This document shows positions 926 through 62,880 of a DNA stretch of 64,000 nucleotides, one piece after another; the stretch's first letter is position 1; every line of letters begins with the position of its first letter. The translations under genes and the position numbers were made by a program. Source of the stretch: Siphonodentalium dalli (lineage: Eukaryota; Mollusca; Scaphopoda; Gadilida; Siphonodentaliidae); contig CP136066.1 in the NCBI GenBank assembly GCA_032622095.1, positions 130,355,917 to 130,419,916 on the forward strand, read 5' to 3'. The notes beneath the pieces were generated by a model. The model had not been told where the DNA came from. It searched no databases and saw only the letters and a program-made list of their open reading frames with translations.

Positions 926-964
926 TATCTTGGCTTCATTGGCCTTTTTAATATTCAGAGATTA

Positions 965-39290: not shown

Positions 39291-40162
39291 CTAAATGGTT
39301 TTAGAAAAAGGCGCTTGTGAGATTGGAAATTTCCAACAATTGAGAAAGTTTGAGGTGTCAGTTGTGAAATTCCAACCTAAGACTTGTGAGTCTGTAGCCC
39401 GGGTCGGAAGGGACTTGTTGAGCTGGAGGAGGAGGGGGTGATCAGTAGTGTACAGTTGGTAATTTCAAGGTGGATTTTCACCAATCTACATACGTGAAGT
39501 CTCTCTAGCCACATATCCTGTTTAGAGCTATTTCTTTTAAAGTGATTATGAAAAGTTCTGACTGTTGTGGTCTCCAGAGTCCCAGTCTTATCAGTATTTG
39601 CAGTCTGTTGAGCGACCCCACAGTCATTGACTGTCTTGTTTTGTAATTCCGTCACGATGGATTTCAAGATATACATGCATTCACACCGACCATTCGAAAA
39701 CGCGCATCTGTGTTGCCAACACTATAGTCAAATCTTCCTACAATTACCTTGCGTTGAAATTTGTGTTCATGATTTAGCCAATTTTCATAAAATGAGTCGA
39801 TTTCGGAAGTGGGTATATCGAAAAATATACGACAATGCTTCTTTGTGACCAACAACCAACCATCTATGTTGCCTAATTCCCGTCTGATTATAACTAAAGT
39901 AAATATCACGTGTATATTTGTCCGAATCGATGTCTAGAGGAAACTATTTCGTTTCCTAAACGAGATGTACTCAAATTCGTCTCGGCTCGTGCTGAACTGA
40001 CACATTCGACAAATTATATTATTCAAATAAGCTGATAAACGAGTCCCATATGTAATTGAATGTTTTAGCATAATATCAGAGACGTGGCGAGAGAGGGGGG
40101 CCCGGGGGTGTCTCACCCCCCAACTTTGGTCAAAATTTTCAACAGTTGGAAATTTCATACCT
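39291..40162. repeat. Left flank of the giant inverted repeat, with TTGGAAATTTCCAA motifs
   Basis: GGAAATTTCCAAC and GTTGGAAATTTCATACC motifs recur, continuing into the arm. The stretch 39400-40080 is otherwise without recognised features; short frames there lack conserved motifs. Confidence 0.5.
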
Positions 40163-40209
40163 GCCAAAACATTAGTTGGAAATTTCATACCAACGATAGG
40201 TTGAAAATG

Positions 40210-40760
40210 TTCTTGTAGTTTGAATTTCAAACAATTTATTGGGGGAATTAATTGTTTTTGGACCAATATTTGCATATTTTCCTATTTTTTGTCAAAATTT
40301 TGGACTGAAATGGTCACCAGTTGCAAATTTTCCAACCTTAGGGGGGTTGACAGGTTGGACATTTCCTACACTTGGAAAGCTTGTGTCATGGTCCCTCCCC
40401 CGTGGCCAGTCAAAAACTGTTAGTTAATTTTTTTTTAAACCAATATTGTCATACATTTGGTCAACATTGTCATTGGAATTGTCATCAGTTGGAAATTTTC
40501 CAACCTAAGTGGGGTTTGAAATTTCCAACTCTAGGAAGGCTTGAGGCTAGTCTATAGATGCTAGGATTTTGCGATTTTCTTGTTCAGATTTCACAATTTT
40601 CGTGTCATTGTCCCTCCCCCATGCATGGCCAATACAAAACTGCTAACAAAAATTAACTTGTGGACTGAAATGGTCATCAGTTGGAGAAATTTCAAATCTG
40701 AGGGGAGAGTATGAGGTTTGAAATTTCCAACACTAGTATAGGCCAGTCCAGATGCTAGGA
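40210..40760. repeat. TTGGAAATTTTCCAACC tandem units
   Basis: Three units of roughly 170-190 bp carry TGGTCATCAGTTGGAAA-type phrases, a short palindrome TTGGAAATTTTCCAA and GTCCCTCCCCC(G/A)TG. The units overlap the outer edge of the left arm and are mirrored at 61790-62340. Confidence 0.65.
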
Positions 40761-41806
40761 TTTGCGATTTTCTTGTTTAGTTTTCAATATTTTCTCACAC
40801 CGGGCCGAACAACCATGTTTCCTGCTTTCTTGCCCGTAGCCGTGTGCATTTATCTGGAGTTAGACCACTAGATGTTAGGATTTATGCAATTTTTCAGGTT
40901 AAAATATCTGAATGAATGTTCTCATACCGGGTTATATAGAGCATATTAGGCTTGAGCACTGAGGCGCAAAGGGGGGGGGGGGGGTGCAAATGGAATTATG
41001 CAAAACTTGTGTTTTTGTCTGATTCTGATTCAAGAGGGGGGTGCAATTGGAATTTCCCAAGGTGGACACCCCCGAACTGAGACACTCTAGCCACGTCCCT
41101 GCATGATATACTTGATAGTGAGCTGTTTCGAGTTGGAACCTTCACGTAAAGTGAAGTACATAATTAAGGAACAGGTAATAACTAAATAACTAAGAATATA
41201 TTCCCCGCGTTATTTTTTCAAGTTTATAATGCTCCCTGTCAAAACTTCAAAAAGTTTCCATGTTTTGTACTGATAGAATATGATTTATATGGGTGTTAGT
41301 CAGAATAGAGATTCGTGGCATGATCTAAACCTTTTAAGATCAATCAATAAGCATTTCAATGTTAAAAAGAATTACCAACTATTATAAACAACCTGTAATT
41401 GGTATGTTTCGCCCCATACCGTTATATAGTGAAACCGGCACACATATAAGCGCACACCCTGAAAACGCTGTATAATGTGGCCGTCCCTCAAACGGTTCAC
41501 GTTTGGTATTAAGTCATTCTATATATTAGTCGGATTCCTTATGTCATTTTGCATTTTTGGTTTGTTAAAAGCGATCTGAAAACGGATTATGTATGCCTAG
41601 TATGTGTGTTTTCAGGATTCACTTGTTTCCATTCTTGAATTTTGGCGGGTCGGCCTAAATCGGGGTCATCATAATTTAGAGAGCGTTTCGTATTTATAGA
41701 AAACGATAGATGGTGCCATCTGGCATATGGTGATCGGTGTGATTTGAAACTTCTCCAAACTACTAGATATGACTGTTACATGTATTTTTGAAAATTTTGA
41801 TGTGAT
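40761..41806. other. Left-arm stretch without recognised features
   Basis: It includes a 14-base G run at 40971-40984, mirrored as about 15 C at 61565-61579. No gene is seen. Confidence 0.5.
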
Positions 41807-42060
41807 CGGTTCATTCTTGTTGGCTACAGTTGTGATCAAAATTTAACACTGAGTCCTATGGAGATTATAGTACTTTAGATAAATGGCGCCATTTTGCGTA
41901 TTATGATATGCGCGTACTGATATTTCTAAAGAATACTAAGTATGAAACACAGACGTAGTTTTTAAAAGAATGGATGTGATCAGATGATTCTTGCTGGGTA
42001 CAGTTGCGATCAAAATTTAACACTTAATCCTATGGAGAATTTCGTGTTATGCTCAAACGT
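41807..42060. repeat. Two diverged units of about 178 bp
   Basis: Both units carry ATTCTTG.TGG.TACAGTTG and GATCAAAATTTAACACT, followed by TCCTATGGAGA. They are mirrored in the right arm near 60490-60745. Confidence 0.65.
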
Positions 42061-44054
42061 TGATTGTAATATCACTTATTGGCAATCGTGCGCAAATATA
42101 TATGTAGACTAACACTCGTGTTTGACCCACTGTAACTATCCGTGATTTAATGGATGCAATTAATACATGATATAGTTATGCCTCAAGATACAGTTATTGG
42201 CAAAAGTAAGTGTCGAATGGTTTTGTAATTTCGATAATATGCAGTCTGTTGAATCAAACGAAAATATTCACAACAAGACTGTTCACGATGTGATTACATA
42301 TTATATTATTGTTTTATTTGATACTTGTTTGTCTTGTTGTCCACTGACTAGTTTTTAAAACCACATCGTTGATCATAACGGGATGTAGTGTCACAAATAC
42401 ACAGGTATATAGATTGTAGTTGTCATTAACTCAATCGTTGTCATCGGAGTCTATCCCACATGCACTGAGAAAATCTGTGTTTTCGCAGGATTTGTGCTAC
42501 TGATAAATGGACATTTCGGTGGAGCTGAGATCTTTGCTATAGCGGTATAGGCTTTGCTTTCATACTTCCCACGTCAGTTACATTTGGGCCAACTTCAGTA
42601 CAGCTAGCGACTGAAACCCAACATTCACCATCAATATTCTGACCACAGTCAATTTCTTCGCTTCGTGTATAGCTGTGAAAATCAAGTAAATTCGAATTTC
42701 CATTAAAGTAGAGCTTAATGAGTAAAATAGATATCAACCATAGTTGCATTTCCTGCAAATTCCCAGTAGGTTCTTAGTAACCGTTACTAAGGAGCTATCG
42801 GGATCGGTGACAAAGTCTCCCGATCTTATAATGATCAGTGGCCTATGCAGAACATGGCTGCACAGTTAAAAGACATATATACATGTGCCCAACTTTGAAC
42901 AAAACCAGCACCATGTGATTAGACACTGACTAAATTATGGCAATACCAATGAATGATTAGCAACCGTTGTTAACCTTAAATAAGACATATGATTCACTTT
43001 GACGGCCAGGTATATCTCAAATTTCACATTTGGGTATTAACTGCATCGGAAACGCAAACGTTGAATTACGACCCTATCTGTTACAATTGCAATTTCTAGT
43101 GAATTCCCAGTAATTTCCTAGACTAAGTTTCTCGATCTTATAATGATCAATGGCCCATGGGGTACTAACATGTACAGTTTCATATCTGTGTCACCATTTC
43201 AACATAACCAATACCATCCGACTGTAGACACTATCTAATTTACGGGAAAATGCCACGGCCCAGAATGTTGATCGGTTCAAAGCCAAGTATATTATTGGGG
43301 GAGAACGATCCATTAAGCCTAAGTCGATGGTTTGTTCACAACGGATGGAGTCATGATACATTATGAAGGATGATGGAAGGGTCCCCTCAAATATGTTCTT
43401 CGACACAGTATTGTCTCGCACTGTGTCACTTGCATCTTACTGTATTGTACTATATATAAGACCAAGCACATATTGCACACATATATCTTCTTATAAATAA
43501 ATTATCTCTTAGAAAGTGTCCAGAGATGTCTTGCCTATTTATTCTGACAATTTATTTTTATTCTTGTGGCAAAGGACTTGAGGGAGTGATTTGTTATGTT
43601 GACTAAGGTGTTAATTTAGTATGTGAAACATGTATGCCGGGGGATGTATCGAGTGGACGGAGAAAGTATTTTCTTTATCATCAGATGAACATAATTTAAA
43701 CTCCCAATTTTGATCAACCCGACCAGGAATTATAGAACAACCATCTATATATGCCCAGCAATATTTAGCAATACATAAGGACATGATAACATTGTTTAAC
43801 ATTTTTAAACAATACTGTGCACCCTATCCACATGTATGGCTAAACACATCGTTGGCATAGATGAGTTGTTGTAGTTGTTACATTGATGCTGGTCGGGTTT
43901 CTCCAAATTTAATACCAAACAGAATGATGCATAAGCTACGGTGGCTGGTTTAGGACATGGGGAAATTGTTCTTTTTATTTCGTGGCCACGAAATACTAAT
44001 TCGTGGCGAATTATAACTGATTGACCTTTGCATATATCCAGATACCTTTATGGT
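42061..44054. other. Left-arm stretch without recognised genes
   Basis: Two related segments begin CTCCCGATCTTATAATGATC (about 42818) and TCTCGATCTTATAATGATCA (about 43130), both followed by ATGGC/GGCC and an arm-shared flank, so a diverged duplication of about 310 bp is present. Short minus-strand frames near 42537-42758 and 43191-43421 carry no recognised motif; a signal-peptide-like start in the first is weak and unsupported. Confidence 0.45.
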
Positions 44055-44190
44055 GGGATAGGATAGGATGGGATATTTTATTTCAATATACACATATTAA
44101 TACATAATACATTTGACAAATATTGTATTGAATATTCAAGGGGGTGGCATTGTCAGGCTAGACTGTCTTACTGCCACCCTGCTACGGTAT
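44055..44190 (-). mobile_element. SINE- or LINE-tail-like element, left-arm copy
   Basis: On the minus strand it runs from GGGTGGCAGTAAGACAGTCT through CTTGAATATTCAATAC to AAATAAAATATCCCATCC and a (CCTAT)n tail. A hairpin-like 3' region with a short repeated tail fits a LINE or SINE 3' end. It is mirrored at 58316-58450. Confidence 0.45.
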
Positions 44191-45010
44191 GGTTACACTT
44201 GATGATGTTTTAGAAACAATTTGTACGATCGCAGAGAAGCTACTATAAACCCCTTATGGCGTGAGACCCGGGCTCTATGCGGATATGAACGTCCGATATA
44301 AACTAGCCCAGAGAGAACGGGGAAACACGGGTCAGGTGGCTCCAAGAAAAACTGAATATTCATTAGTTTTTACCACAAGGGATCGAATGGGAATGACATT
44401 TCACTCGGCATATATATTGGCCGAATTAAGTCAAATAATGGGTTTTGTAGGGTGGGCCCAAAACAAACTTATAAATATTCACCCCTTTCAACCATACCCG
44501 ATCCAAAATGGTCGCCGCTCAGAAGGGGTCAAATAGGGTACACATTATTTCTTGGTCACTTGACCGATATAGATCAAATAAAGGGTGTTGTACGGTGGCT
44601 AGCAAAGCAAGCTAAATTTTCACACCTTCAGCCCATTCGAGCGAAAATGATAAATGATCATTGGGGTCCATATAATTATGGTACAATGCAATAACCCCCC
44701 AATATTGGGTCGAATACAGTGTGTTGTAGGGTGACCCCTGATGAGACAAACTAAATATTCACCGGCTTATCCATCTCCGATCCAAAATGGCCGCCCAGAT
44801 GGGTTCAAATATGGCACCTATACAATTTCTCGGCCCCTTAACCGTTTGATGTGGTAGAATTGGTGCTGTAGGGTGGCCCCAAGATATACTGAATGTCGTG
44901 GGTGCCCTATGTGACCCACCCCCAGGACGGCGGCAACTTTGGATCGGGTTGGTGAAAGGGGTGATTACTTAATTTGTTTTACGGGCCACCCTACAACACC
45001 CTTTATCTCA
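44191..45010. repeat. GTAGGGTGGCCCC tandem units, about 170 bp
   Basis: Four to five diverged units carry GTTGTA(C/G)GGTGGC, AAACTAAATATTCACC and CGATCCAAAATGGCCGCC. They are mirrored at 57496-58315. Confidence 0.7.
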
Positions 45011-45628
45011 AACCGCCGTGGCTGATGCCATGATGGTGGACTTGACATATGTGCATAATATCAACTCGCATAATTCATGAAAAGGCTAATCGTGTAAGTT
45101 AATATATGTATAATCAGTAAACGCTCTTTAAATTTTTTAAACCGTCCAAACAATTTGTTTCCACTAAAATGTCAGAATGGAAACAAGTAGACTCTGAAAG
45201 TAGACCGCCATATTTGATACTTTTGTTAATTTCAACTCGCACATCCACCATAAGGTTAGTTATGAGGATTAATATTTGTATAATAAGCAAACGCTCTTTA
45301 AATTCTTAAAACAGTCCAAAAACACTTTTTTTTCAATAAAATTTTAACTGGACACAGGTCAACTCTGAAAGTAGACACGCTATTGATAAATAAACCGTTC
45401 GAATGTCATTTTAGACAATCCGAAATTGCGCGACCGTTGTTTTTGACCAAAGGAATCTGACTTGTGAAATCAGTGAGGGTGGGGGTAGGGTTAGCTTTTC
45501 TGCGATATCTTTACCAAAATTCGATGTATCGAAGTTTTGTTTGTGGCATATGATCAAGATATCCTTGTAGATTGTTCATGTTCGTCTATATGTGATCTAG
45601 CTGATTTTAAGAATATACAATACCTTAA
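45011..45628. repeat. Tandem units of about 180 bp (CAAACGCTCTTTAAATT)
   Basis: At least two units with AACTCGCA, AAACGCTCTTTAAATT and ACTCTGAAAGTAGAC. A further diverged relative lies at 45840-46000 inside the block missing from the right arm. Confidence 0.65.
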
Positions 45629-47202
45629 TATTTGGGAAAGAAAATTGAAAATGCAGTCATAAATACAATTCATCTGATGATTTTATGATAAAATTCCACA
45701 TTAAGATATGTAATTAAGTAATTATGGCAAGATCTTTCCATGTTTTACGATTTATAAGAACAAAGAAAGCCACTTACCGAACTGGCTATGCGTAATGGCA
45801 TGTTTGTATTACCAGGTGGACGGGAAAAAGATAGAGGGGTACACAAACAAAAGCCTCACAAAAACCTGTTTCCACTAAAATATCAAGCTGGAAACAGGTA
45901 GATTCTGAAAATAGACACACTGGTGGTATAGAAACTGTTCTCATATCGCTTTTAACATTCCGAAAACGCGCGACCATTTTTTTCGACATAAGGAATCCGA
46001 CTATATGTCTTACCATTTAGCTCCATGAATTTAGTTCCCTATTCTCCTAAAATTGCACTTTTCGTTACTAAATCGGCTGCGTACTAGCCAGAGCCATGAT
46101 GGCCACCCGGGAATCCTTGTATTTTTGTGCGGTGCCACCCAGTGGGCATCTATAGGAAAGGGACGCGACCATACAGCCCTTTCCAAATTTTCAAAAATCG
46201 TGATGAAGTCGTGCATGGGGTGTCAAAATAGCACTTTTCGTTACTAAATCGGCTGAACAAATGTGTATAAATACTACACAATATGTGTTACATTTGATCT
46301 TAAACAAAATTGTGTAGAAATGCAACATGACATAAATGTGTCGGTGGAATTTTCTCAACATTGAATATGAGTGAATATGTGAGTATATTATATTTAATAT
46401 ATGAGATATTTTCTATTTGAGACATAAACCTCGTAACAGCTGCCATAATAAAAAATTGGCAGCTGCTTCAAAATTTTGTGCTACACAATTATGTGTTGTT
46501 CAGTTTTTACACAAACATAGTGTATAACAAAATTTTAAGCTGCCAATAAATTATTGTTTGTTCTGTGGTAGCCATTACGAGTTGTGTGTCTCCAATATAA
46601 CACATTTCATCTAATAACTATGATACACTCACATATTCAATCATATTCAACGTTGATGATATTCCACCGACATATTTAATAATTATATGTCATGTGTCAT
46701 TTCTACACAATTTTATTTAAGATCAATTGTAACACATTTTGTGTAGTATTTATACACATTTGTTCTAAGAGTGCAGCGGGCATCTATAGGAAAGGGACGC
46801 GAGCATGCAGCCCCTTCCAATTTTTCGAAAATTGGGCTGAAGTCGTGCATGTGGTGTCAAAATAGCACTTTTCGTTACTAAATCGGCTGCGTAGCCAGAA
46901 CCATGGTGGCCATCCGGGAATCCTTGTATTTTCGTGCGGTGCCACACAGCGGGCATCTATAGGAAAGGGACGCGACCATGCAGCCCCTTCCAAATTTTCG
47001 AAAATTAGGCTGAAGTCGTGCATGGGGTGTCAAAATAGCACTTTTCGTTACTAAATCGGCTGCGTCGCCAGAACCATGGTGGCCACCCGGGAATCCTTTT
47101 TGTTACTAAATCGGAAGAACGGCGGTCACCCGGGAATCCTTTCACTTCGCGTGTTGCCATCCAGCGGGCGTCTAAATAGCAAAGACATGACCAAATAGCC
47201 AA
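45629..47202. other. 1,574 bp block present only in the left arm
   Basis: The right arm goes directly from the equivalent of 47203 to that of 45628 (junction near 56877-56880). The block holds about 400 bp of unassigned sequence, then satellite units and a foldback element. The two edges share only about two bases (AA), so the difference looks like a simple deletion or insertion. Confidence 0.9.
46255..46765. mobile_element. Foldback MITE, 511 bp, almost all inverted repeat
   Basis: The ends are GAACAAATGTGTATAAATAC and its exact reverse complement. The arms stay similar for roughly 200 bp each (TACACAA.ATGTGTTAC, GATCTTAAA.AAAATTGTG, GTCGGTGGAAT). It splits a satellite unit. No target duplication was recognised. 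Confidence 0.88.
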
Positions 47203-47214
47203 TCCAAAATTTTA

Positions 47215-47275
47215 TATTATTTGGTGGGGGTATATGACGTGGTAATTGAAAGACAAAGTAAACTGTTAATTGGAT
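47215..47275. repeat. 61 bp segment repeated exactly at 50833-50893
   Basis: TATTATTTGGTGGGGGTATA through ACTGTTAATTGGAT sits between two satellite fragments here and in unrelated sequence at 50833. Mirror copies lie at 56805-56865 and 53187-53247, so there are four copies in the window. Confidence 0.95.
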
Positions 47276-47760
47276 GGTGGCCACCCGGGAATCCTTGTAT
47301 TTTCGTGCGGTGCCACCCAGTGGGCATCTATAGGAAAGGGACGCGACCATGCAGCCCCTTCCAACTTTTCGAAAATTAGGCTGAAGTCGTGCATGGGGTG
47401 CCAAAATAGCACTTTTCGTTACTAAATCGGCTGCGTCGCCAGAACCATGGTGGCCACCCGGGAATCCTTGTATTTTCGTGCGGTGCCACCCAGTGGGCAT
47501 CTATAGGAAAGGGACGCGACCATGCAGCCCCTTCCAAATTTTCGAAAATTGGGCTGAAGTCGTGCATGGGGTGTCAAAATAGCACTTTTCGTTACTAATT
47601 CGGCTGCGTAGCCAGAGTCATGATGGCCACCCGGGAATCCTTTTTGTTACTAAATCGGAAGAACGGCGGTCACCCGGGAATCCTTTCACTTCGCGTGTTG
47701 CCATCCAGCGGGCGTCTAAATAGCAAAGACATGACCAAATAGCCAATCCAAAATTTTATT

Positions 47761-48589
47761 TCGGCCAATTTGGCCGGTTGCTTCATGTGAGTTTTTCATC
47801 TGACGTGTGTGTCGGAATAATGATGTGGAGGATTTATGTAAATGTTAGCCCAAACTACATTTCCAAGTAACGATGGTTTTGTTGTTTATTTTGAGGAATA
47901 ATACCGCGTCAGATGAATTCAGCCCAAATATGTTAACAGTTGTCGTGTAAAACATTCGGCAGTAAGTTAGCGTTATTTAGTATTTGTGGATGTCCTTTAA
48001 CATGGGGAAAATAGACTACTGCGCTTGAACGAGCATGTGAATTGTCGTTTTTAATGTATAGCAACTTTATAATCAATAACAGAGGCATTCTCTGTCAAAT
48101 AAGGTCGCTCTATTTACGATACCAATTGGGGAACTTTGTGAATTAAATTACGCGTAAACTTAACCTGCTGCAAATAGAAAAGGTGTCGGAATCGGCGTAC
48201 TCGCCTCAGGGCTAACTCGCCCCAATCAGCGAGTGCCAACTCGGAATAAAAGGCCAACTCGGAATAAAAGATGCATACGGGGTGTTATATGGCGTTTGGT
48301 CCGTTGTTTCTCAATGAATATTATTGAAATTTGGTGTATATGTCCGGGCTGGGACATGGAATACAACAACGTTTGAATTGTTTTTAAATTTACAAATTTG
48401 TTGATTTTATTCATTTTGTTTTCGTTCTGAAACACACTATAAAGTGTATATAATATAATAACGAACACGAGACATACATAATTTATAAACTGTTAACAAA
48501 AGATATCAAATTCAATACATGACAAAGATGACTCAGTGGAGTTTATAAAGTGAACATAAAAATATTAAGGTAAAAATCTTTTTAAGCAT
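47761..48589. other. Left-arm stretch without recognised genes
   Basis: A short direct repeat, GCCAACTCGGAATAAAAG, occurs twice near 48235-48270. Nothing else is recognised. Confidence 0.45.
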
Positions 48590-49930
48590 TACTAAACCGT
48601 TTAGCACAGTCCGCTTCACTCATCCGATCATCACTAAACTTTATATTGATCTATCAGATGAGAGCTATCAAATATTTTTTTAATTTTATAGGAAAAAATG
48701 GTCGCCATTTACGTTATATGTTATCGCGTCATGTCGATATCTAGTATTAGTTAGAAATTTCACCTTTCCAGATTCATAATTGCTCCATTGACTGTAACAG
48801 ATGGAATTATTCCCCTCTTCGGATAGAGTGTCACTGAAACTTTATTTTGTCAGACTGTCTGTATAGTCACTGATTATATATGGCAATAATCTGTAATAAG
48901 ATGTAGCACTATTTTATATTTACATGCAGTGCTGTTTTTATACAACAATTCTAATCCCCCCTAGATCATCATGTGATCGACCATACATCGCGCGAGGACC
49001 TGGTTGAATTGAGGGGGGTTTTATGGATAACTTCTGTCCTCAAGCTAGATTATACTTATGACATTTAATGGCATGTTTCTAACGTGGAGGGTTAGATATG
49101 CTTGAGACACCACCACTCTTCAATTCACACCAAGTTATCAGCTGTCATATCCGGATATTAGAACCCATAGCCATGATATATGGTTTATTTTGTGTATACT
49201 AGTAATATTGTTATTTTCAGTACCTTTATATACCAGTACTGTGTATAACAATGCATATAAATTAATCCATGTATACATGTATATTGATTCAACGGATTCA
49301 GTGGTTTTGTCCATAAGTCTATCAAATATGCGGGGAAAACATGGCCACAAGCAGTACACCCTGTTAAATTTCGAATTTGAATCAATTGGCGCACCCTGCA
49401 GCCAGCTTTTATTGGAGAACTCTTTCTCACGTGGATAGTTTGGGTCACCGCTAGATGTGAGCCATGTTTTGTTCTCAAGCTGTCCTTGTGAAGACATCAC
49501 TGCCAGCGGTGATCTGGAATTTTACTATTTTTATGGCTAAATAATTTGGTTGATCCTACAGACGACACCCCTTGTCCGATCGTCACCAGATTCCACAATG
49601 ATCTTCTGGATAACCAGGGTGAGAGTAATCTAATTTCCCCGAATTTCGTTAAAAAACATTACCACAGGCAGCTATTTGGTATCTTACTGTTTGATCCTCT
49701 TTTGCGTGACTGAATTGTTTAGCAACTGTACAGTCATATCCCTCATCTGATAGTCACCACACTTTATATTGATCTTCGGGCTGACAACTAGATGGGAGCT
49801 ATCGAATGCTTTGAATTTTTTTGGAAAACATTGTCGCCAGCAGTCATCTTCTATTTTGGTTTTTATATACATGTATATCTCTTCATTCGGATAGTCAGTA
49901 TTACGTAGGTACTTCAACTTTCCGCATTCC
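48590..49930 (+). repeat. AGCTCAAC-family monomers in the left arm
   Basis: Old monomers (GATCATCACTAAACTTTATA, AGATGGGAGCTATCGAA-type, ATTTCACCTTTCC, GCTCCATTGACTGTAA) include a degenerate terminus near 48760-48845 (AGAGTGTCACTGAAACTT). They are mirrored at 54150-55490. Confidence 0.65.
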
Positions 49931-50129
49931 TGTCATCATTTGAAATATAAAAATTTACCTGATACCATGCACCCTTCAAAATTTGTTTCGTCGTATCTAT
50001 TTTAATGACCCGTATGGTAATATTGATACAGATATATTTGTCAAACATTTCTTTGTACAATATACAGGTATTTAGTTTGTAACTAAATCTAGAAATATAT
50101 AATAGTAGCTGGTGGACCCTACTTCGTCC

Positions 50130-50480
50130 GGGATGTTCCCCTCTGATTTTCGGAGAATTGCGCGATTTAACCTTGAATTGACCATTTTAAAGGTGAACGT
50201 CATGTCGGGTCACGATTTGACCCGTCCAAAACACTCCCCGGACAAAAGTCACGACAACAATACCCGTCGAAATCCGCCCGGCTTTACCCGATTTGACCTT
50301 GAATTGACAATTTTGAATGTCAAGATCATGTCAGGGTCATAATTTGACCCACCCGAAACACTCCTGGGACAAAAGTAACAGTAGGTATTATATTTCGTTG
50401 AAATACTTCCGTTTTACCAGATTTGACCTTGAATTGATCTTTTTGAATGTCAAAGTCAGATCGGGATCAAGATTTGACCC
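50130..50480 (+). repeat. Three tandem units of about 127 bp
   Basis: GATTT(A/G)ACCTTGAATTGA occurs near 50163, 50290 and 50419, with GACCC(G/A)(T/C)CC and CACTCC(C/T)GGACAAAAGT following. They are mirrored at 53600-53950. Confidence 0.8.
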
Positions 50481-51305
50481 ATCCAAATAGTCCAGAAACA
50501 TGCCTACATCAGCACGTTCGAGAACATGGTCCCACGTGAAATTGGACCCGTCCATATTGCTCCCGGGATCGAAGTAGTCCTACACACAATTTTTTAGTCG
50601 GATCGGTCAAGGTCCAGAAACATGCCTATGAGCGAGGTCAAGTTGACACGTTAAATACCAAATCCGAGTCGGATCAGTCGAGCAGTGTTAGAGTCTATAA
50701 CACATACACACATGCATTCATGCATACACACATACATACAGACAGGTGTTCCAAAATGTATAATCGATAGCTACAACAATTCTATGGTAGATAGTTCACG
50801 GCCGACCTGATGCATGCATCTTAGTTTTCTTGTATTATTTGGTGGGGGTATATGACGTGGTAATTGAAAGACAAAGTAAACTGTTAATTGGATAGTTGTT
50901 ATGTATCTTTAATTTCAGATCTTGTTTATATTCTCACAAAATAACGAAATCAACACACAAAAACACATTATAGCGCTCAATAAAAGACCGTTCATGCGAC
51001 ACGTTCCCCACTGTGTTCGTGTATATATTCCCTTTAGAAAACTTTCTGTTATGTGAGTTTTTGTTTTTAACAATCACGTAGTTACACGCATGTTTATATG
51101 GATGGGAAGTGACATTACTAAAATTCTTCAAATTCAAATTCCAAATTGGGTCACCAGAATCATTTTTATACTTGATTGGTGCAGCTGCATATCACACTCG
51201 GTGTGTGCTAGCATTTAAAACAAAATCTAAAATATCACAAAATATCATTTAAAGAATGGTAACAGTTGGATTCTCGAGGACATACACCAAGTTTGGGGGC
51301 AATGG
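50481..51305. other. Innermost left arm, no gene recognised
   Basis: It includes the second copy of the 61 bp segment (50833-50893). A 67-codon frame at 50934-51137 (minus) is identical to its mirror copy but shows no domain. Confidence 0.5.
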
Positions 51306-51618
51306 ACTTAAGTCCAAATAATTGGACTTAAGTCCAAATGAATTGGACTTAAGTCCAAATGAATTGGACTTAAGTCCAATTAGCGAATTGATTTGGACTT
51401 AAGTCCAAATGAATTGGACTTAAGTCCAATTAATTGCACTTAAGTCCAATTATTGGACTTATTAAAGTCCAAATAATTGGACTTAAGTCCAAATAATTGG
51501 ACTTAAGTCCAATAATTTGACTTAAGTCCAATTAATTGGACTTAAGTCCAATTATTTGGACTTAAGTCCAATTAGTGAATTGATTTGGACTTAAGTCCAA
51601 TTCATTTGGACTTAAGTC
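51304..51618. repeat. Palindrome array 1: about 15 units of TTGGACTTAAGTCCAA
   Basis: Twelve units have a perfect GGACTTAAGTCC core and three are degenerate (GCACTT, TGACTT, and one with an insertion). Cores start at 51304, 51324, 51345 and 51366, then after a 29 bp step at 51395 and 51416. The 20-21 bp step is two helical turns. Linkers are AT-only (AAT, AATT, AAATGAA). Confidence 0.97.
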
Positions 51619-51907
51619 CAATTCATCTGGTTTGAAACGATAGTCCCCTTCTTTGTAATGGTATATTCCTGCAAGTTTTGATTGACAGTCAAACTCCGTA
51701 CTAACCAGGGCATTCCTGACTCCAAGCATACACAAGACGGCTGTCAATCAAGACTAACTCCGTACCAAACTGCAAGACAGAGTTCAGTCCCCTATGCTAC
51801 GCGGGACTTACAAATCATAGCATGAGCGTACAGCTTGACTCCGTACGTCCCCTTTGCCACGTGGCTTGTTTTCGGCATGCCGAGATTGAAAATGTTTCGA
51901 ATCCGAA
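51619..51907. other. Segment between the two palindrome arrays
   Basis: TTGATTGACAG (about 51679) and CTGTCAATCAA (about 51741) form an inverted pair. AACTCCGTAC or GACTCCGTAC occurs three times (about 51695, 51755, 51838). No coding content is recognised. Confidence 0.6.
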
Positions 51908-52058
51908 TTGGATCTTAAGTCCAAATCAATTCGCTAATTGGACTTAAGTCCAATTCATTTGGACTTAAGTCCAATTATTTGGACTTAAGTCCAATTCATT
52001 GGACTTAAGTCCAAATAATTGGACTTAAGTCCAAATCATTGGACTTAAGTTCAAATCA
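51906..52058. repeat. Palindrome array 2: about 7 units of TTGGACTTAAGTCCAA
   Basis: Five perfect GGACTTAAGTCC cores and two degenerate ones. The linker AAATCAATTCGCTAATT (51923-51939) is the reverse complement of the linker AATTAGCGAATTGATTT in array 1 (51379-51395), so the two arrays are inverted copies. Confidence 0.95.
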
Positions 52059-55000
52059 ATCAAAAATGTGAAAACGGCTTGCCATATGTGTGAGCCGAGC
52101 GTTTGTTTATATACATCACGTCAATAGTGGGCGATAAAACATTCAACACCGTGGCGATTTTTTTAGGAGATGGCAGTATTACATTTCACTTATAGTGGGG
52201 TCTCCCCGGTGTTGAGTGTTTGGCTTATCGCATACTTTTTACGCACTGTACTGTTGTACAATGTGATCTTTATTTACATAACAAATCGTACGAACTTGAC
52301 AATAGCATACTATTTAGCGATTTTTTATGATTGGCATAATAACAAAATATGACTATATTTAATATTACTTCTGTCTATGGCGGTTTTATCGGATGTGACT
52401 AATTAAGCAGCAATACTCACCACGAAGGCCATTCGTGCCTTTAATACGTAGGTTTCGCAACTTATGTTTTATGGCAACAACTATGTTTAAAAAGTCGTAT
52501 GCGTAAAATTCACGTGAGCCCAGAAATTTCGCTTCGCAAAAATAACGGCGACGATTAGAGCTTGGTTTACATGCGCACCTTGAGTTTTGTAAAACAATTA
52601 TTAGGGTCTTAACCACTGACATCCTTGTACTGTAAACAAAAACAAAACAAAGCACAAATTTGTAATCCCCAAAACACGTAGCTTTTTTAGAAATATCGAT
52701 TTCTTAAAAATATCGATATCTATTTCTGGATAAAAAAGAAACGACATTTCTGGCAGTTTAACCCGATTCTTAAGCCATTGCCCCCAAACTTGGTGTATGT
52801 CCTCGAGAATCCAACTGTTACCATTCTTTAAATGATATTTTGTGATATTTTAGATTTTGTTTTAAATGCTAGCACACACCGAGTGTGATATGCAGCTGCA
52901 CCAATCAAGTATAAAAATGATTCTGGTGACCCAATTTGGAATTTGAATTTGAAGAATTTTAGTAATGTCACTTCCCATCCATATAAACATGCGTGTAACT
53001 ACGTGATTGTTAAAAACAAAAACTCACATAACAGAAAGTTTTCTAAAGGGAATATATACACGAACACAGTGGGGAACGTGTCGCATGAACGGTCTTTTAT
53101 TGAGCGCTATAATGTGTTTTTGTGTGTTGATTTCGTTATTTTGTGAGAATATAAACAAGATCTGAAATTAAAGATACATAACAACTATCCAATTAACAGT
53201 TTACTTTGTCTTTCAATTACCACGTCATATACCCCCACCAAATAATACAAGAAAACTAAGATGCATGCATCAGGTCGGCCGTGAACTATCTACCATAGAA
53301 TTGTTGTAGCTATCGATTATACATTTTGGAACACCTGTCTGTATGTATGTGCGTATGCATGAATGCATGTGTGTATGTGTTATAGACTCTAACACTGCTC
53401 GACTGATCCGACTCGGATTTGGTATTTAACGTGTCAACTTGACCTCGCTCATAGGCATGTTTCTGGACCTTGACCGATCCGACTAAAAAATTGTGTGTAG
53501 GACTACTTCGATCCCGGGAGCAATATGGACGGGTCCAATTTCACGTGGGACCATGTTCTCGAACGTGCTGATGTAGGCATGTTTCTGGACTATTTGGATG
53601 GGTCAAATCTTGATCCCGACCTGACTTTGACATTCAAAAAGATCAATTCAAGGTCAAATCTGGTAAAACGGAAGTATTTCAACGAAATATAATACCTACT
53701 GTTACTTTTGTCCCAGGAGTGTTTCGGGTGGGTCAAATTATGACCCTGACCTGATCTTGACATTCAAAATTGTCAATTCAAGGTCAAATCGGGTAAAGCC
53801 GGGCGGATTTCGACGGGTATTTTTGTCGTGACTTTTGTCCGGGGAGTGTTTTGGACGGGTCAAATCGTGACCCGACATGACGTTCACCTTTAAAATGGTC
53901 AATTCAAGGTTAAATCGCGCAATTCTCCGAAAATCAGAGGGGAACATCCCGGACGAAGTAGGGTCCACCAGCTACTATTATATATTTTTAGATTTAGTTA
54001 CAAACTAAATACCTGTATATTGTACAAAGAAATGTTTGACAAATATATCTGTATCAATATTACCATACGGGTCATTAAAATAGATACGACGAAACAAATT
54101 TTGAAGGGTGCATGGTATCAGGTAAATTTTTATATTTCAAATGATGACAGGAATGCGGAAAGTTGAAGTACCTACGTAATACTGACTATCCGAATGAAGA
54201 GATATACATGTATATAAAAACCAAAATAGAAGATGACTGCTGGCGACAATGTTTTCCAAAAAAATTCAAAGCATTCGATAGCTCCCATCTAGTTGTCAGC
54301 CCGAAGATCAATATAAAGTGTGGTGACTATCAGATGAGGGATATGACTGTACAGTTGCTAAACAATTCAGTCACGCAAAAGAGGATCAAACAGTAAGATA
54401 CCAAATTGCTGCCTGTGGTAATGTTTTTTAACGAAATTCGGGAAAATTAGATTACTCTCACCCTGGTTATCCAGAAGATCATTGTGGAATCTGGTGACGA
54501 TCGGACAAGGGGTGTCGTCTGTAGGATCAACCAAATTATTTAGCCATAAAAATAGTAAAATTCCAGATCACCGCTGGCAGTGATGTCTTCACAAGGACAG
54601 CTTGAGAACAAAACATGGCTCACATCTAGCGGTGACCCAAACTATCCACGTGAGAAAAAGTTCTCCAATAAAAGCTGGCTGCAGGGTGCGCCAATTGATT
54701 CAAATTCGAAATTTAACAGGGTGTACTGCTTGTGGCCATGTTTTCCCCGCATATTTGATAGACTTATGGACAAAACCACTGAATCCGTTGAATCAATATA
54801 CATGTATACATGGATTAATTTATATGCATTGTTATACACAGTACTGGTATATAAAGGTACTGAAAATAACAATATTACTAGTATACACAAAATAAACCAT
54901 ATATCATGGCTATGGGTTCTAATATCCGGATATGACAGCTGATAACTTGGTGTGAATTGAAGAGTGGTGGTGTCTCAAGCATATCTAACCCTCCACGTTA

Positions 55001-58000
55001 GAAACATGCCATTAAATGTCATAAGTATAATCTAGCTTGAGGACAGAAGTTATCCATAAAACCCCCCTCAATTCAACCAGGTCCTCGCGCGATGTATGGT
55101 CGATCACATGATGATCTAGGGGGGATTATAATTGTTGTATAAAAACAGCACTGCATGTAAATATAAAATAGTGCTACATCTTATTACAGATTATTGCCAT
55201 ATATAATCAGTGACTATACAGACAGTCTGACAAAATAAAGTTTCAGTGACACTCTATCCGAAGAGGGGAATAATTCCATCTGTTACAGTCAATGGAGCAA
55301 TTATGAATCTGGAAAGGTGAAATTTCTAACTAATACTAGATATCGACATGACGCGATAACATATAACGTAAATGGCGACCATTTTTTCCTATAAAATTAA
55401 AAAAATATTTGATAGCTCTCATCTGATAGATCAATATAAAGTTTAGTGATGATCGGATGAGTGAAGCGGACTGTGCTAAACGGTTTAGTAATGCTTAAAA
55501 AGATTTTTACCTTAATATTTTTATGTTCACTTTATAAACTCCACTGAGTCATCTTTGTCATGTATTGAATTTGATATCTTTTGTTAACAGTTTATAAATT
55601 ATGTATGTCTCGTGTTCGTTATTATATTATATACACTTTATAGTGTGTTTCAGAACGAAAACAAAATGAATAAAATCAACAAATTTGTAAATTTAAAAAC
55701 AATTCAAACGTTGTTGTATTCCATGTCCCAGCCCGGACATATACACCAAATTTCAATAATATTCATTGAGAAACAACGGACCAAACGCCATATAACACCC
55801 CGTATGCATCTTTTATTCCGAGTTGGCCTTTTATTCCGAGTTGGCACTCGCCGATTGGGGCGAGTTAGCCCTGAGGCGAGTACGCCGATTCCGACACCTT
55901 TTCTATTTGCAGCAGGTTAAGTTTACGCGTAATTTAATTCACAAAGTTCCCCAATTGGTATCGTAAATAGAGCGACCTTATTTGACAGAGAATGCCTCTG
56001 TTATTGATTATAAAGTTGCTATACATTAAAAACGACAATTCACATGCTCGTTCAAGCGCAGTAGTCTATTTTCCCCATGTTAAAGGACATCCACAAATAC
56101 TAAATAACGCTAACTTACTGCCGAATGTTTTACACGACAACTGTTAACATATTTGGGCTGAATTCATCTGACGCGGTATTATTCCTCAAAATAAACAACA
56201 AAACCATCGTTACTTGGAAATGTAGTTTGGGCTAACATTTACATAAATCCTCCACATCATTATTCCGACACACACGTCAGATGAAAAACTCACATGAAGT
56301 AACCGGCCAAATTGGCCGAAATAAAATTTTGGATTGGCTATTTGGTCATGTCTTTGCTATTTAGACGCCCGCTGGATGGCAACACGCGAAGTGAAAGGAT
56401 TCCCGGGTGACCGCCGTTCTTCCGATTTAGTAACAAAAAGGATTCCCGGTGGCCATCATGACTCTGGCTACGCAGCCGAATTAGTAACGAAAAGTGCTAT
56501 TTTGACACCCCATGCACGACTTCAGCCCAATTTTCGAAAATTTGGAAGGGGCTGCATGGTCGCGTCCCTTTCCTATAGATGCCCACTGGGTGGCACCGCA
56601 CGAAAATACAAGGATTCCCGGGTGGCCACCATGGTTCTGGCGACGCAGCCGATTTAGTAACGAAAAGTGCTATTTTGGCACCCCATGCACGACTTCAGCC
56701 TAATTTTCGAAAAGTTGGAAGGGGCTGCATGGTCGCGTCCCTTTCCTATAGATGCCCACTGGGTGGCACCGCACGAAAATACAAGGATTCCCGGGTGGCC
56801 ACCATCCAATTAACAGTTTACTTTGTCTTTCAATTACCACGTCATATACCCCCACCAAATAATATAAAATTTTGGATTTAAGGTATTGTATATTCTTAAA
56901 ATCAGCTAGATCACATATAGACGAACATGAACAATCTACAAGGATATCTTGATCATATGCCACAAACAAAACTTCGATACATCGAATTTTGGTAAAGATA
57001 TCGCAGAAAAGCTAACCCTACCCCCACCCTCACTGATTTCACAAGTCAGATTCCTTTGGTCAAAAACAACGGTCGCGCAATTTCGGATTGTCTAAAATGA
57101 CATTCGAACGGTTTATTTATCAATAGCGTGTCTACTTTCAGAGTTGACCTGTGTCCAGTTGAAATTTTATTGAAAAAAAAGTGTTTTTGGACTGTTTTAA
57201 GAATTTAAAGAGCGTTTGCTTATTATACAAATATTAATCCTCATAACTAACCTTATGGTGGATGTGCGAGTTGAAATTAACAAAAGTATCAAATATGGCG
57301 GTCTACTTTCAGAGTCTACTTGTTTCCATTCTGACATTTTAGTGGAAACAAATTGTTTGGACGGTTTTAAAAATTTAAAGAGCGTTTACTGATTATACAG
57401 ATATTAACTTACACGATTAGCCTTTTCATGAATTATGCGAGTTGATATTATGCACATATGTCAAGTCCACCATCATGGCATCAGCCACGGCGGTTTGAGA
57501 TAAAGGGTGTTGTAGGGTGGCCCGTAAAACAAATTAAGTAATCACCCCTTTCACCAACCCGATCCAAAGTTGCCGCCGTCCTGGGGGTGGGTCACATAGG
57601 GCACCCACGACATTCAGTATATCTTGGGGCCACCCTACAGCACCAATTCTACCACATCAAACGGTTAAGGGGCCGAGAAATTGTATAGGTGCCATATTTG
57701 AACCCATCTGGGCGGCCATTTTGGATCGGAGATGGATAAGCCGGTGAATATTTAGTTTGTCTCATCAGGGGTCACCCTACAACACACTGTATTCGACCCA
57801 ATATTGGGGGGTTATTGCATTGTACCATAATTATATGGACCCCAATGATCATTTATCATTTTCGCTCGAATGGGCTGAAGGTGTGAAAATTTAGCTTGCT
57901 TTGCTAGCCACCGTACAACACCCTTTATTTGATCTATATCGATCAAGTGACCAAGAAATAATGTGTACCCTATTTGACCCCTTCTGAGCGGCGACCATTT

Positions 58001-58315
58001 TGGATCGGGTATGGTTCAAAGGGGTGAATATTTATAAGTTTGTTTTGGGCCCACCCTACAAAACCCATTATTTGACTTAATTCGGCCAATATATATGCCG
58101 AGTGAAATGTCATTCCCATTCGATCCCTTGTGGTAAAAACTAATGAATATTCAGTTTTTCTTGGAGCCACCTGACCCGTGTTTCCCCGTTCTCTCTCGGC
58201 TAGTTTATATCGGACGTTCATATCCACATAGAGCCCGGGTCTCACACCATAAGGGGTTTATAGTAGCTTCTCTGCGATCGTACAAATTGTTTCTAAAACA
58301 TCATCAAGTGTAATC

Positions 58316-58450
58316 ATACCGTAGCAGGGTGGCAGTAAGACAGTCTAGCCTGACAATGCCACCCCCTTGAATATACAATACAATATTTGTCAAATGTATT
58401 ATGTATTAATATGTGTATATTGAAATAAAATATCCCATCCTATCCTATCC
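58316..58450 (+). mobile_element. SINE- or LINE-tail-like element, right-arm copy
   Basis: Mirror copy of 44055-44190, reading GGGTGGCAGTAAGACAGTCT to AAATAAAATATCCCATCCTA in the plus orientation. Confidence 0.45.
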
Positions 58451-58497
58451 CACCGTAAAGGTATCTGGATATATGCAAAGGTCAATCAGTTATAATT

Positions 58498-58566
58498 CGC
58501 CACGAATTAGTATTTCGTTGCCACGAATTAGTAATTTAGTGGCCACGAATTAGTATTTCGTGGCCA
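58498..58566. repeat. Minisatellite expanded in the right arm
   Basis: GCCACGAATTAGTATTTCGT-like units of 21-22 bp occur about three times here. The left arm (about 43978-44010) has one. This accounts for the 43 bp change in pairing sum. Confidence 0.85.
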
Positions 58567-61500
58567 CGAAATAAAAAGAACAATTTCCCCATGTCCTAAA
58601 CCAGCCACCGTAGCTTATGCATCATTCTGTTTGGTATTAAATTTGGAGAAACCCGACCAGCATCAATGTAACAACTACAACAACTCATCTATGCCAACGA
58701 TGTGTTTAGCCATACATGTGGATAGGGTGCACAGTATTGTTTAAAAATGTTAAACAATGTTATCATGTCCTTATGTATTGCTAAATATTGCTGGGCATAT
58801 ATAGATGGTTGTTCTATAATTCCTGGTCGGGTTGATCAAAATTGGGAGTTTAAATTATGTTCATCTGATGATAAAGAAAATACTTTCTCCGTCCACTCGA
58901 TACATCCCCCGGCATACATGTTTCACATACTAAATTAACACCTTAGTCAACATAACAAATCACTCCCTCAAGTCCTTTGCCACAAGAATAAAAATAAATT
59001 GTCAGAATAAATAGGCAAGACATCTCTGGACACTTTCTAAGAGATAATTTATTTATAAGAAGATATATGTGTGCAATATGTGCTTGGTCTTATATATAGT
59101 ACAATACAGTAAGATGCAAGTGACACAGTGCGAGACAATACTGTGTCGAAGAACATATTTGAGGGGACCCTTCCATCATCCTTCATAATGTATCATGACT
59201 CCATCCGTTGTGAACAAACCATCGACTTAGGCTTAATGGATCGTTCTCCCCCAATAATATACTTGGCTTTGAACCGATCAACATTCTGGGCCGTGGCATT
59301 TTCCCGTAAATTAGATAGTGTCTATAGTCGGATGGTATTGGTTATGTTGAAATGGTGACACAGATATGAAACTGTACATGTTAGTACCCCATGGGCCATT
59401 GATCATTATAAGATCGAGAAACTTAGTCTAGGAAATTACTGGGAATTCACTAGAAATTGCAATTGTAACAGATAGGGTCGTAATTCAACGTTTGCGTTTC
59501 CGATGCAGTTAATACCCAAATGTGAAATTTGAGATATACCTGGCCGTCAAAGTGAATCATATGTCTTATTTAAGGTTAACAACGGTTGCTAATCATTCAT
59601 TGGTATTGCCATAATTTAGTCAGTGTCTAATCACATGGTGCTGGTTTTGTTCAAAGTTGGGCACATGTATATATGTCTTTTAACTGTGCAGCCATGTTCT
59701 GCATAGGCCACTGATCATTATAAGATCGGGAGACTTTGTCACCGATCCCGATAGCTCCTTAGTAACGGTTACTAAGAACCTACTGGGAATTTGCAGGAAA
59801 TGCAACTATGGTTGATATCTATTTTACTCATTAAGCTCTACTTTAATGGAAATTCGAATTTACTTGATTTTCACAGCTATACACGAAGCGAAGAAATTGA
59901 CTGTGGTCAGAATATTGATGGTGAATGTTGGGTTTCAGTCGCTAGCTGTACTGAAGTTGGCCCAAATGTAACTGACGTGGGAAGTATGAAAGCAAAGCCT
60001 ATACCGCTATAGCAAAGATCTCAGCTCCACCGAAATGTCCATTTATCAGTAGCACAAATCCTGCGAAAACACAGATTTTCTCAGTGCATGTGGGATAGAC
60101 TCCGATGACAACGATTGAGTTAATGACAACTACAATCTATATACCTGTGTATTTGTGACACTACATCCCGTTATGATCAACGATGTGGTTTTAAAAACTA
60201 GTCAGTGGACAACAAGACAAACAAGTATCAAATAAAACAATAATATAATATGTAATCACATCGTGAACAGTCTTGTTGTGAATATTTTCGTTTGATTCAA
60301 CAGACTGCATATTATCGAAATTACAAAACCATTCGACACTTACTTTTGCCAATAACTGTATCTTGAGGCATAACTATATCATGTATTAATTGCATCCATT
60401 AAATCACGGATAGTTACAGTGGGTCAAACACGAGTGTTAGTCTACATATATATTTGCGCACGATTGCCAATAAGTGATATTACAATCAACGTTTGAGCAT
60501 AACACGAAATTCTCCATAGGATTAAGTGTTAAATTTTGATCGCAACTGTACCCAGCAAGAATCATCTGATCACATCCATTCTTTTAAAAACTACGTCTGT
60601 GTTTCATACTTAGTATTCTTTAGAAATATCAGTACGCGCATATCATAATACGCAAAATGGCGCCATTTATCTAAAGTACTATAATCTCCATAGGACTCAG
60701 TGTTAAATTTTGATCACAACTGTAGCCAACAAGAATGAACCGATCACATCAAAATTTTCAAAAATACATGTAACAGTCATATCTAGTAGTTTGGAGAAGT
60801 TTCAAATCACACCGATCACCATATGCCAGATGGCACCATCTATCGTTTTCTATAAATACGAAACGCTCTCTAAATTATGATGACCCCGATTTAGGCCGAC
60901 CCGCCAAAATTCAAGAATGGAAACAAGTGAATCCTGAAAACACACATACTAGGCATACATAATCCGTTTTCAGATCGCTTTTAACAAACCAAAAATGCAA
61001 AATGACATAAGGAATCCGACTAATATATAGAATGACTTAATACCAAACGTGAACCGTTTGAGGGACGGCCACATTATACAGCGTTTTCAGGGTGTGCGCT
61101 TATATGTGTGCCGGTTTCACTATATAACGGTATGGGGCGAAACATACCAATTACAGGTTGTTTATAATAGTTGGTAATTCTTTTTAACATTGAAATGCTT
61201 ATTGATTGATCTTAAAAGGTTTAGATCATGCCACGAATCTCTATTCTGACTAACACCCATATAAATCATATTCTATCAGTACAAAACATGGAAACTTTTT
61301 GAAGTTTTGACAGGGAGCATTATAAACTTGAAAAAATAACGCGGGGAATATATTCTTAGTTATTTAGTTATTACCTGTTCCTTAATTATGTACTTCACTT
61401 TACGTGAAGGTTCCAACTCGAAACAGCTCACTATCAAGTATATCATGCAGGGACGTGGCTAGAGTGTCTCAGTTCGGGGGTGTCCACCTTGGGAAATTCC

Positions 61501-62394
61501 AATTGCACCCCCCTCTTGAATCAGAATCAGACAAAAACACAAGTTTTGCATAATTCCATTTGCACCCCCCCCCCCCCCCTTTGCGCCTCAGTGCTCAAGC
61601 CTAATATGCTCTATATAACCCGGTATGAGAACATTCATTCAGATATTTTAACCTGAAAAATTGCATAAATCCTAACATCTAGTGGTCTAACTCCAGATAA
61701 ATGCACACGGCTACGGGCAAGAAAGCAGGAAACATGGTTGTTCGGCCCGGTGTGAGAAAATATTGAAAACTAAACAAGAAAATCGCAAATCCTAGCATCT
61801 GGACTGGCCTATACTAGTGTTGGAAATTTCAAACCTCATACTCTCCCCTCAGATTTGAAATTTCTCCAACTGATGACCATTTCAGTCCACAAGTTAATTT
61901 TTGTTAGCAGTTTTGTATTGGCCATGCATGGGGGAGGGACAATGACACGAAAATTGTGAAATCTGAACAAGAAAATCGCAAAATCCTAGCATCTATAGAC
62001 TAGCCTCAAGCCTTCCTAGAGTTGGAAATTTCAAACCCCACTTAGGTTGGAAAATTTCCAACTGATGACAATTCCAATGACAATGTTGACCAAATGTATG
62101 ACAATATTGGTTTAAAAAAAAATTAACTAACAGTTTTTGACTGGCCACGGGGGAGGGACCATGACACAAGCTTTCCAAGTGTAGGAAATGTCCAACCTGT
62201 CAACCCCCCTAAGGTTGGAAAATTTGCAACTGATGACCATTTCAGTCCAAAATTTTGACAAAAAATAGGAAAATATGCAAATATTGGTCCAAAAACAATT
62301 AATTCCCCCAATAAATTGTTTGAAATTCAAACTACAAGAACATTTTCAACCTATCGTTGGTATGAAATTTCCAACTAATGTTTTGGCCGGTGCG

Positions 62395-62445
62395 TATAAA
62401 AGCCGAACACAACCGAACACAACCGAACATAACCGAACACAAGTC
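62395..62445 (+). repeat. CCGAACACAA tandem array at the outer edge of the right arm
   Basis: Four units of about 10 bp (one CCGAACATAA) follow GTATAAAAG directly outside the arm. AAAAGCCGAACACAAG recurs at about 62591, 192 bp further. Confidence 0.85.
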
Positions 62446-62880
62446 CAAATAATGGGAAATATAACGAATAAAGTTCATAGGCGTGTGTATTCATGTTCAC
62501 ACTATTAATATACGAAGTTTGGTGGAGTTCGGGCCAATAATAAGTGTTTTATTCGATATTTTGTAAAACGCGTTCAGTGTTCGGCATAGAAAAGCCGAAC
62601 ACAAGCTTCTCTCGTGGATTAGTCTATAACGGCTGTCTAGCTAGGTGAATGATAATTAATATCAGATATATGGTCACTAAGCCGAAAGGCTTTAATTGTT
62701 GTTGGTGGCGGTCTCTCACCTATTGTAGTTCAGTGTTTTGACAGTTAGTTGCAATCAGTATTTGATGGCGCCTACTATTATAGAAACAACATGCTTTTGG
62801 TGGGCCCCGCCATGAAAGACAACGTACGATTGTAAAAACAATATTTGAGTGACAAGAAAGTGAGTTCATGGTGCAATATC
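62446..62880. other. Right-flank stretch without recognised features
   Basis: Nothing coding is recognised upstream of the PHD ORF in this stretch. Confidence 0.4.

Follow-up and report, generated by a model that had tools for sequence, protein, structure and literature searches.

Palindromic subterminal repeats of a dispersed transposon with IS3EU-like ends in Siphonodentalium dalli, and one copy that reads as a fold-back inverted duplication

Excerpts of the published work describe several transposons that resemble the one reported here. Galileo and Tetris, which are Foldback-like elements of Drosophila, likewise have tandem repeats within long terminal inverted repeats (TIRs), and in Tetris too the array length differs among copies (PMC3688188, PMC4079207). 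Some of the repeats in the Galileo TIR hold extra transposase binding sites (PMC3688188). A further likeness is that Galileo and DAIBAM, a relative of Tetris, are linked to inversions (PMC3688188, PMC4079207). Their units are long (about 220 bp in Tetris) whereas ours are 16-bp palindromes, and Galileo belongs to the P superfamily (PMC3688188, PMC4079207). Muta1, a Mutator-like element of Aedes aegypti that has been called a type2 Foldback TE, is alike in its subterminal tandem repeat (nine 12-bp units with 3-4-bp spacers) and in its more than 300 putative non-autonomous derivatives, which often vary in repeat number (PMC5225508). It differs in its 8-9-bp target duplications and in its superfamily, and what is palindromic in Muta1 is the terminal motif, not the repeat unit (PMC5225508). 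PiggyBac has 19-bp palindromes at both ends. In a piggyBac complex each of the two monomers contributes one C-terminal domain to the binding of the palindrome, and the activity of piggyBat is restricted by a subterminal site (PMC11707139).

By its ends and its target duplication length our family matches the IS3EU superfamily. According to the excerpts available, IS3EU families always have TA..TA termini and usually have a 6-bp target site duplication (TSD) (PMC10045372), and the fungal ones have TAYGG..CCRTA termini and a TIR of more than 30 bp (PMC12730594). Our family agrees with them in its TA..TA termini, in its 6-bp TSD (15 of 16 loci), in its TATGG..CCATA ends, which fall within TAYGG..CCRTA, and in its TIR of 34 bp. 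It differs in that palindrome arrays inside the ends go unmentioned in the available parts of the IS3EU descriptions. No transposase was found here, so the assignment to IS3EU is provisional and is made from the ends and the TSD length. A literature search found no layout with perfect palindromes as the subterminal repeats of a transposon with IS3EU-like ends, and no paper joining 'IS3EU' and 'subterminal'. A different comparison is offered by fold-back duplications in humans. In the available part of that work, 13 of the 21 junctions sequenced have 2-8 bp of microhomology, and the loops measure 0.8-70 kb, the smallest being 766 bp (PMC3907307).

The window, which is the whole 64,000-nucleotide stretch of DNA that was analysed, contains a genuine palindrome array. 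There are 21 cores and one interrupted core, split over two blocks of 14 and 7 cores with about 290 bp of non-array spacer between them. GGACTTAAGTCC is matched 21 times with at most 2 mismatches at 51304-52052, and 17 of these matches are perfect; the shuffled window (n=100) gave a mean of 1.5 matches and a maximum of 6. The interrupted 22nd core, TTGGACTTATTAAAGTCCAA, was read directly from the sequence at 51453-51472. An earlier note had described a single array of about 22 cores, 17 of them perfect. Its total agrees with ours, but there are two blocks instead of one array, and the perfect 16-mers number 16, not 17. The steps it gave are the ones we measured, 20-21 bp in most cases and 29 bp in some. 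Its AT-only linkers do not hold up: ATGAA, TTCAT and TTAGCGAATTGAT are frequent, G or C is often present, and of 279 linkers that separate perfect cores in the fetched copies, 96 consist of A and T only. It was right to place the array at the centre of an inverted repeat, the arms of which were found at 40159-51305 and 52775-62391. It knew of no described satellite with this unit, and a literature search for the core's 12-, 14- or 16-mer agrees, having found no paper that contains any of them. An Rfam search of the window gave 0 matches, and a Pfam search of three window ORFs gave 0 families. Folding of the left block as single-stranded DNA gives -136 kcal/mol, with a z of -33 against 100 shuffles. 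The features of the array and its borders are as follows.

51302 to 51621, plus strand: left palindrome block, 14 cores and 1 interrupted; array of the spacer-proximal (T-type) transposon end
51303 to 51311, no strand: left inner junction, an array core joined to repeat C; TGG shared, then ACTTAAG against CTTAAG
51393 to 51408, no strand: putative acceptor core, within which the inverted block leaves the left block (alignment)
51622 to 51913, plus strand: spacer, transposon interior adjoining the T-type array
51909 to 52054, minus strand: right palindrome block, 7 cores; inverted copy of the T-type array's outer portion, placed on the wrong side of the spacer
51914 to 51918, no strand: putative fold-back junction, CTTAA common to the spacer end (GGATCTTAA) and the inverted core (GGACTTAAGTCC)
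52053 to 52086, minus strand: 34-bp terminal inverted repeat TATGGCAAGCCGTTTTCACATTTTTGATTGATTT, first core at offset 34
52087 to 52092, plus strand: TGTGTG, target site bordering the transposon, without its partner duplicate; L052-L055 read through

The genome (2.23 Gb in 9 contigs) was searched for the exact 16-mer. It occurs 3931 times, and its reversed control occurs 0 times. Six core clusters were listed, all on contig C1. Five of the six lie within or beside a matching transposon terminus, and the cluster at C1:18527984 has no terminus among those listed. Searching with the spacer (51625-51910, 286 bp) gave 62 matches in the best 40 of 946 candidates, and four places, the window and 3 other loci, are identical over the 286 bp. 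Twenty of the spacer-match places were fetched for reading. As far as the fetched stretches go, the copies consist of terminus, palindrome block, spacer and interior, block and terminus, and TIR plus palindrome blocks at both ends is the structure of a Foldback-type element.

The ends of this transposon are 34-bp TIRs, TATGG...CCATA, and the terminus consensus is TATGGCAAGCCGTTTTCACATTTT(T/C)GATTGATTT, of which minor variants occur. A few single-base variants of TATGG..CCATA are seen among 53 ends. In 47 of these ends the first core lies at offset 34, and in the other 6 it does not. Genome-wide, the exact 23-bp terminus was counted 318 times on one strand and 314 times on the other. Both termini are in view at 18 loci, 16 of which have full flanks, and at 15 of these 16 there is a TSD of exactly 6 bp and nothing longer. 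The sole exception without a TSD (L031) is a composite of two transposon copies with a common border. At L004 and L008 one flank has just 2-3 bases, which are in agreement by reading. The smallest copy read (L039) is 160 bp long and is made of two TIRs and five cores, and the richest has 30 cores. Blocks of about 3-20 cores adjoin the TIRs at dispersed loci with TSDs. Block size differs among copies with identical spacers, 9 cores in L001 against 20 in L002, so the array probably changes length quickly. At G000 C5:130.05-130.15 Mb and 132.31-132.34 Mb there are at least 10 exact transposon ends, all on the minus strand. They recur at spacings of 4,024-4,030 and 14,517 bp, which suggests a duplicated segment with several transposon copies.

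Since there are TIRs, 6-bp TSDs and termini near the listed core clusters, the array is, judging by sequence, the subterminal part of a dispersed, non-autonomous DNA transposon. One could instead picture the palindromes as a satellite or a stand-alone regulatory array, a set of phased cooperative dimer sites unrelated to mobile elements. Such an array would explain why 278 of 460 gaps in the fetched copies are 20-21-bp steps, why the cores are so strongly alike (396 of 591 identical) and why one of the six listed clusters has no terminus. It does not explain the matching terminus at the other five clusters or the TSDs that flank 15 of 16 copies, and the vector strength of the left block is 0.25 at 10.5 bp. 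No long tandem arrays independent of a mobile element were seen in the copies read. The TIRs and TSDs in those copies refute a stand-alone satellite, and we regard this whole line of explanation as very improbable. A special satellite is not supported: the cores belong to dispersed transposon ends. What was a puzzling 'satellite' is now a defined transposon family with IS3EU-like ends and perfect-palindrome subterminal repeats.

No transposase or autonomous copy of this family was found in the copies read. Elements of 10.8 and 11.9 kb have no transposase-like ORF by eye among listed ORFs of at least 110 and at least 90 aa. A genome search with NF033577 (bacterial IS481 transposase) gave 67 matches and 0 over the cut-off; the probe is weak, as its control gave matches in 9 of 14 genomes and was over the cut-off in 0. 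The six NF033577 matches that were fetched are without transposon ends and are LTR pol-like by eye. L036 (4.4 kb, one place with L040) was considered as the autonomous partner and rejected, because its large-family ORFs sit in a nested 3.2-kb insertion at 439-3631, which was delimited by comparison with L033 and L037. This insertion carries part of a large protein family, whose open frames reach about 1,530 codons and which has 151 or more matches in the genome. For the four main ORF pieces of L036 the Pfam E-values were 0.047 or worse and NCBIfam gave none, and the best E-value of one ORF piece against the PDB was 0.98. A 189-aa ORF in L031 matches a GDSL-lipase model at 1.4e-5, which is under the cut-off.

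It is worth considering what the cores do. We argue that they are most likely repeated docking sites, as yet putative, for the transposase or another dimeric protein, and cooperative binding by a dimer at such sites is plausible. Mismatches counted in 591 fetched cores come to 24 at the 8 positions of the inner ACTTAAGT and to 194 at the four GG/CC positions, a contrast that is only suggestive since these cores are related and were selected for similarity. The earlier note had the cores phased regularly on one face of the helix. Strict phasing of this kind fails in the left block, where the vector strength is 0.25 at 10.5 bp (0.53 at 10.0 bp). The 6-core right block has 0.64 at 10.5 bp and 0.97 at 10.0 bp. 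Across copies the values are low at 10.5 bp in most blocks and exceed 0.8 at 10.0 bp in many left blocks.

The copy in the window is abnormal: the terminus at its right border (52086) is good, and its left terminus is absent. The target site is empty in four of four other copies of repeat C that were compared (L052-L055). The left palindrome block is without its TIR, and its order of cores and linkers agrees with the T-type ends of L004 and L009. Thirty loci were oriented by an exact 28-base string in the spacer. Among these, the ends on the side where the spacer starts are T-type in 21 of 21 readable cases, and the far ends are C-type in 15 of 15. In the window the far-side end is T-type, against C-type in all 15 readable others. 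When inverted, the right block is 98% identical to the T-type ends of L004 and L009 over 179-180 columns, versus 91% over 134 for the best C-type end. In the alignment the inverted block begins at the terminus, reaches the left block's fifth core and parts from that block within this core.

The junction between the spacer and this inverted block is peculiar to the window. Among 21 printed rows the spacer continues as GAATTGGATCTTAATAAATGC in 10 and as GAATTGGCATCTTAATAAATGC in the other 11; these 11 read CCGAATTGGCATC, 1 of them after an upstream base change. The window reads GAATTGGATCTTAAGTCCAAATC after the spacer, so CTTAA is common to the two parents. A 27-mer across the junction has 1 match in the genome at up to 2 mismatches, and that match is the window itself. 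The distal interior is lost: 941 bp of the L001 interior beyond the spacer gave 0 hits in the window. The 5' part of C is absent from the window too, except for hits of 66-133 bp to a shared repeat. At the left inner junction CTTAAG is one base out of register, and about 780 bp that are present at the right are lacking, namely the terminus, three cores and 688 bp of C. This absence is read as a deletion in the left copy. The arms and the repeat that received the insertion are these.

40159 to 51305, plus strand: left arm, with repeats B, A, a 173-bp tandem array, D and C; B continues past the outer end
52087 to 53253, plus strand: repeat C, dispersed, the insertion target; unbroken at 52774 in all 4 other copies compared
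52775 to 62391, minus strand: right arm, complementary to the left at about 99.7%; alignments to B reach no further than 62391

In the aligned part, about 9.6 kb, the arms differ by 25 substitutions and by indels of 1, 43, 1573 and 1 bp. On the left, repeat B goes on past 40159 for 30, 33 and 82 bp further in the three copies compared. On the right it stops at 62391, so the right arm looks like the copy.

Library and amplification chimeras likewise make microhomology fold-backs. This counts in favour of the 22-kb inverted repeat being an assembly artefact, either a fold-back chimeric read or an inverted haplotype join. However, the 25 substitutions and the 43- and 1573-bp indels between the arms are not expected from one folded molecule, and the inner and outer junctions differ consistently between the arms. 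An artefact is quite unlikely on these grounds. It would be harder still to believe that the entire 22 kb is one large transposon with 10-11-kb TIRs and the array at its centre. Both arms do contain repeats with many copies elsewhere, but they are mosaics in which no fewer than four repeats (A, B, C and D), each dispersed on its own, are joined, and other copies of these repeats end at different points. Repeat A finishes near 41527 in the four loci read there, and near 46008 in the one locus whose other end was read. Long A matches outside the window gave no inverted pair among the best 40 candidates per search. We rejected the arms as one giant element, a scenario that is hardly credible for such a mosaic.

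We argue that the most probable reading, to which we give a chance of roughly 80%, is that the cores are the subterminal arrays of a non-autonomous transposon with IS3EU-like ends and that the window copy is a fold-back inverted duplication. The element would be laid out as a 34-bp TIR, a block of 16-bp palindromes, a variable interior, a second block and a TIR, with a 6-bp target duplication. In this scenario repeat C had received a copy of the transposon, and a break inside that copy, just beyond the spacer, would expose a 3' end, ...GGATCTTAA. Folding back, that end would anneal to a core on its own strand, about 500 bp upstream. Each core is its own reverse complement and holds both CTTAA and TTAAG, so any core could accept such an end. 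Synthesis would then run in reverse for about 10 kb, through the outer array and the TIR and on into C and more of the nested repeats. The left copy would have lost its TIR, three cores and 688 bp of C in a deletion, either coupled to this copying or later than it. We infer the break, the annealing, the synthesis and the order of events from the junctions and missing parts described above.

A variant with two events must be considered. The inverted T-end could be an older rearranged copy, and a later, separate template switch at 51305 with a 1.47-kb loop would have made the inverted duplication. The left junction has microhomology as well (TGG, plus CTTAAG displaced by one base), and on the right C runs unbroken through 52774; both observations suit this scenario. 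The rearranged junction is absent elsewhere in the genome, though, and a single fold-back at CTTAA accounts for the inverted end and the mirrored arms together. We consider two events unlikely. The single fold-back shares its single-copy loop, inverted microhomology, mirrored copy and distal loss with the human fold-back duplications, as the available part of that work describes them (PMC3907307). The human cases are Mb-scale and terminal, whereas the one in the window is about 10 kb, lies inside an assembled contig and has a transposon palindrome as its acceptor (PMC3907307). Here a natural event, resolved to the base, reads as a fold-back inverted duplication whose acceptor was the transposon's own palindromic repeat.

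Other copies were searched for the same arrangement. Three of the 18 complete copies have flanks too short for the test. The other 15 have no comparable flanking inverted repeat, and 12 of these 15 have less than 500 bp on at least one side; only L016, L018 and L021+L022 have flanks of at least 500 bp on both sides. Six one-sided loci, which are unpaired ends on C1 with flanks of about 4 kb, have no inverted repeat longer than 223 bp. A second fold-back of this kind was not seen at the loci examined, many of which have short flanks, and the window is the one locus. The earlier note had asked whether arrays mark other inverted-repeat centres. With none comparable at the 15 complete copies and 6 one-sided loci, it seems that such centres are not generally marked by the array, many of the tested flanks being short. 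The note had also suggested that the array could drive palindrome formation. That idea is supported in the window, where the axis junction lies at a palindromic core, and it finds no comparable case at the 21 other loci, many of them with short flanks.

Smaller inverted repeats do occur beside the ends. A 194-bp inverted pair (88.7%) brackets the terminus in L068, and L070 has several inverted repeats of 110-148 bp beside its terminus. Near 3998 in L068 the terminus lies beside a self-complementary sequence (4028-4237, 83%) without recognisable cores, which is perhaps a diverged array.

We put forward tentatively, and consider rather doubtful as a general rule, that transposons with self-complementary cores at their ends are ready-made fold-back acceptors, each copy being a potential seed for germline palindromes. 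If this were true, a nearby broken end with half a core could anneal to any of a dozen cores on the same strand, and core number would set the rate of germline palindromes and inverted duplications. There are hundreds of ends in this genome, and core number varies among the copies read, so the link from repeat architecture to palindrome birth is testable.

The nested repeats of the arms deserve a few remarks of their own. Repeat A was tried as a CTTAAG-site insertion and rejected, since it ends inside the arms near 41527 and 46008. The 1,573 bp at 45628-47200 contain 173-bp tandem repeats and are in the left arm and absent from the right. A short CCGAACACAA tandem repeat at 62392-62470 adjoins the outer junction. 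Past the right arm, within 62440-62460, is a 13-base array-like stretch, AAGTCCAAATAAT, that is possibly there by chance. Repeat D (53245-56300 and its mirror) interrupts C. It has 38 other scored copies, and these are 97-98% identical over most of a 2.4-kb stretch, so D was probably active recently.
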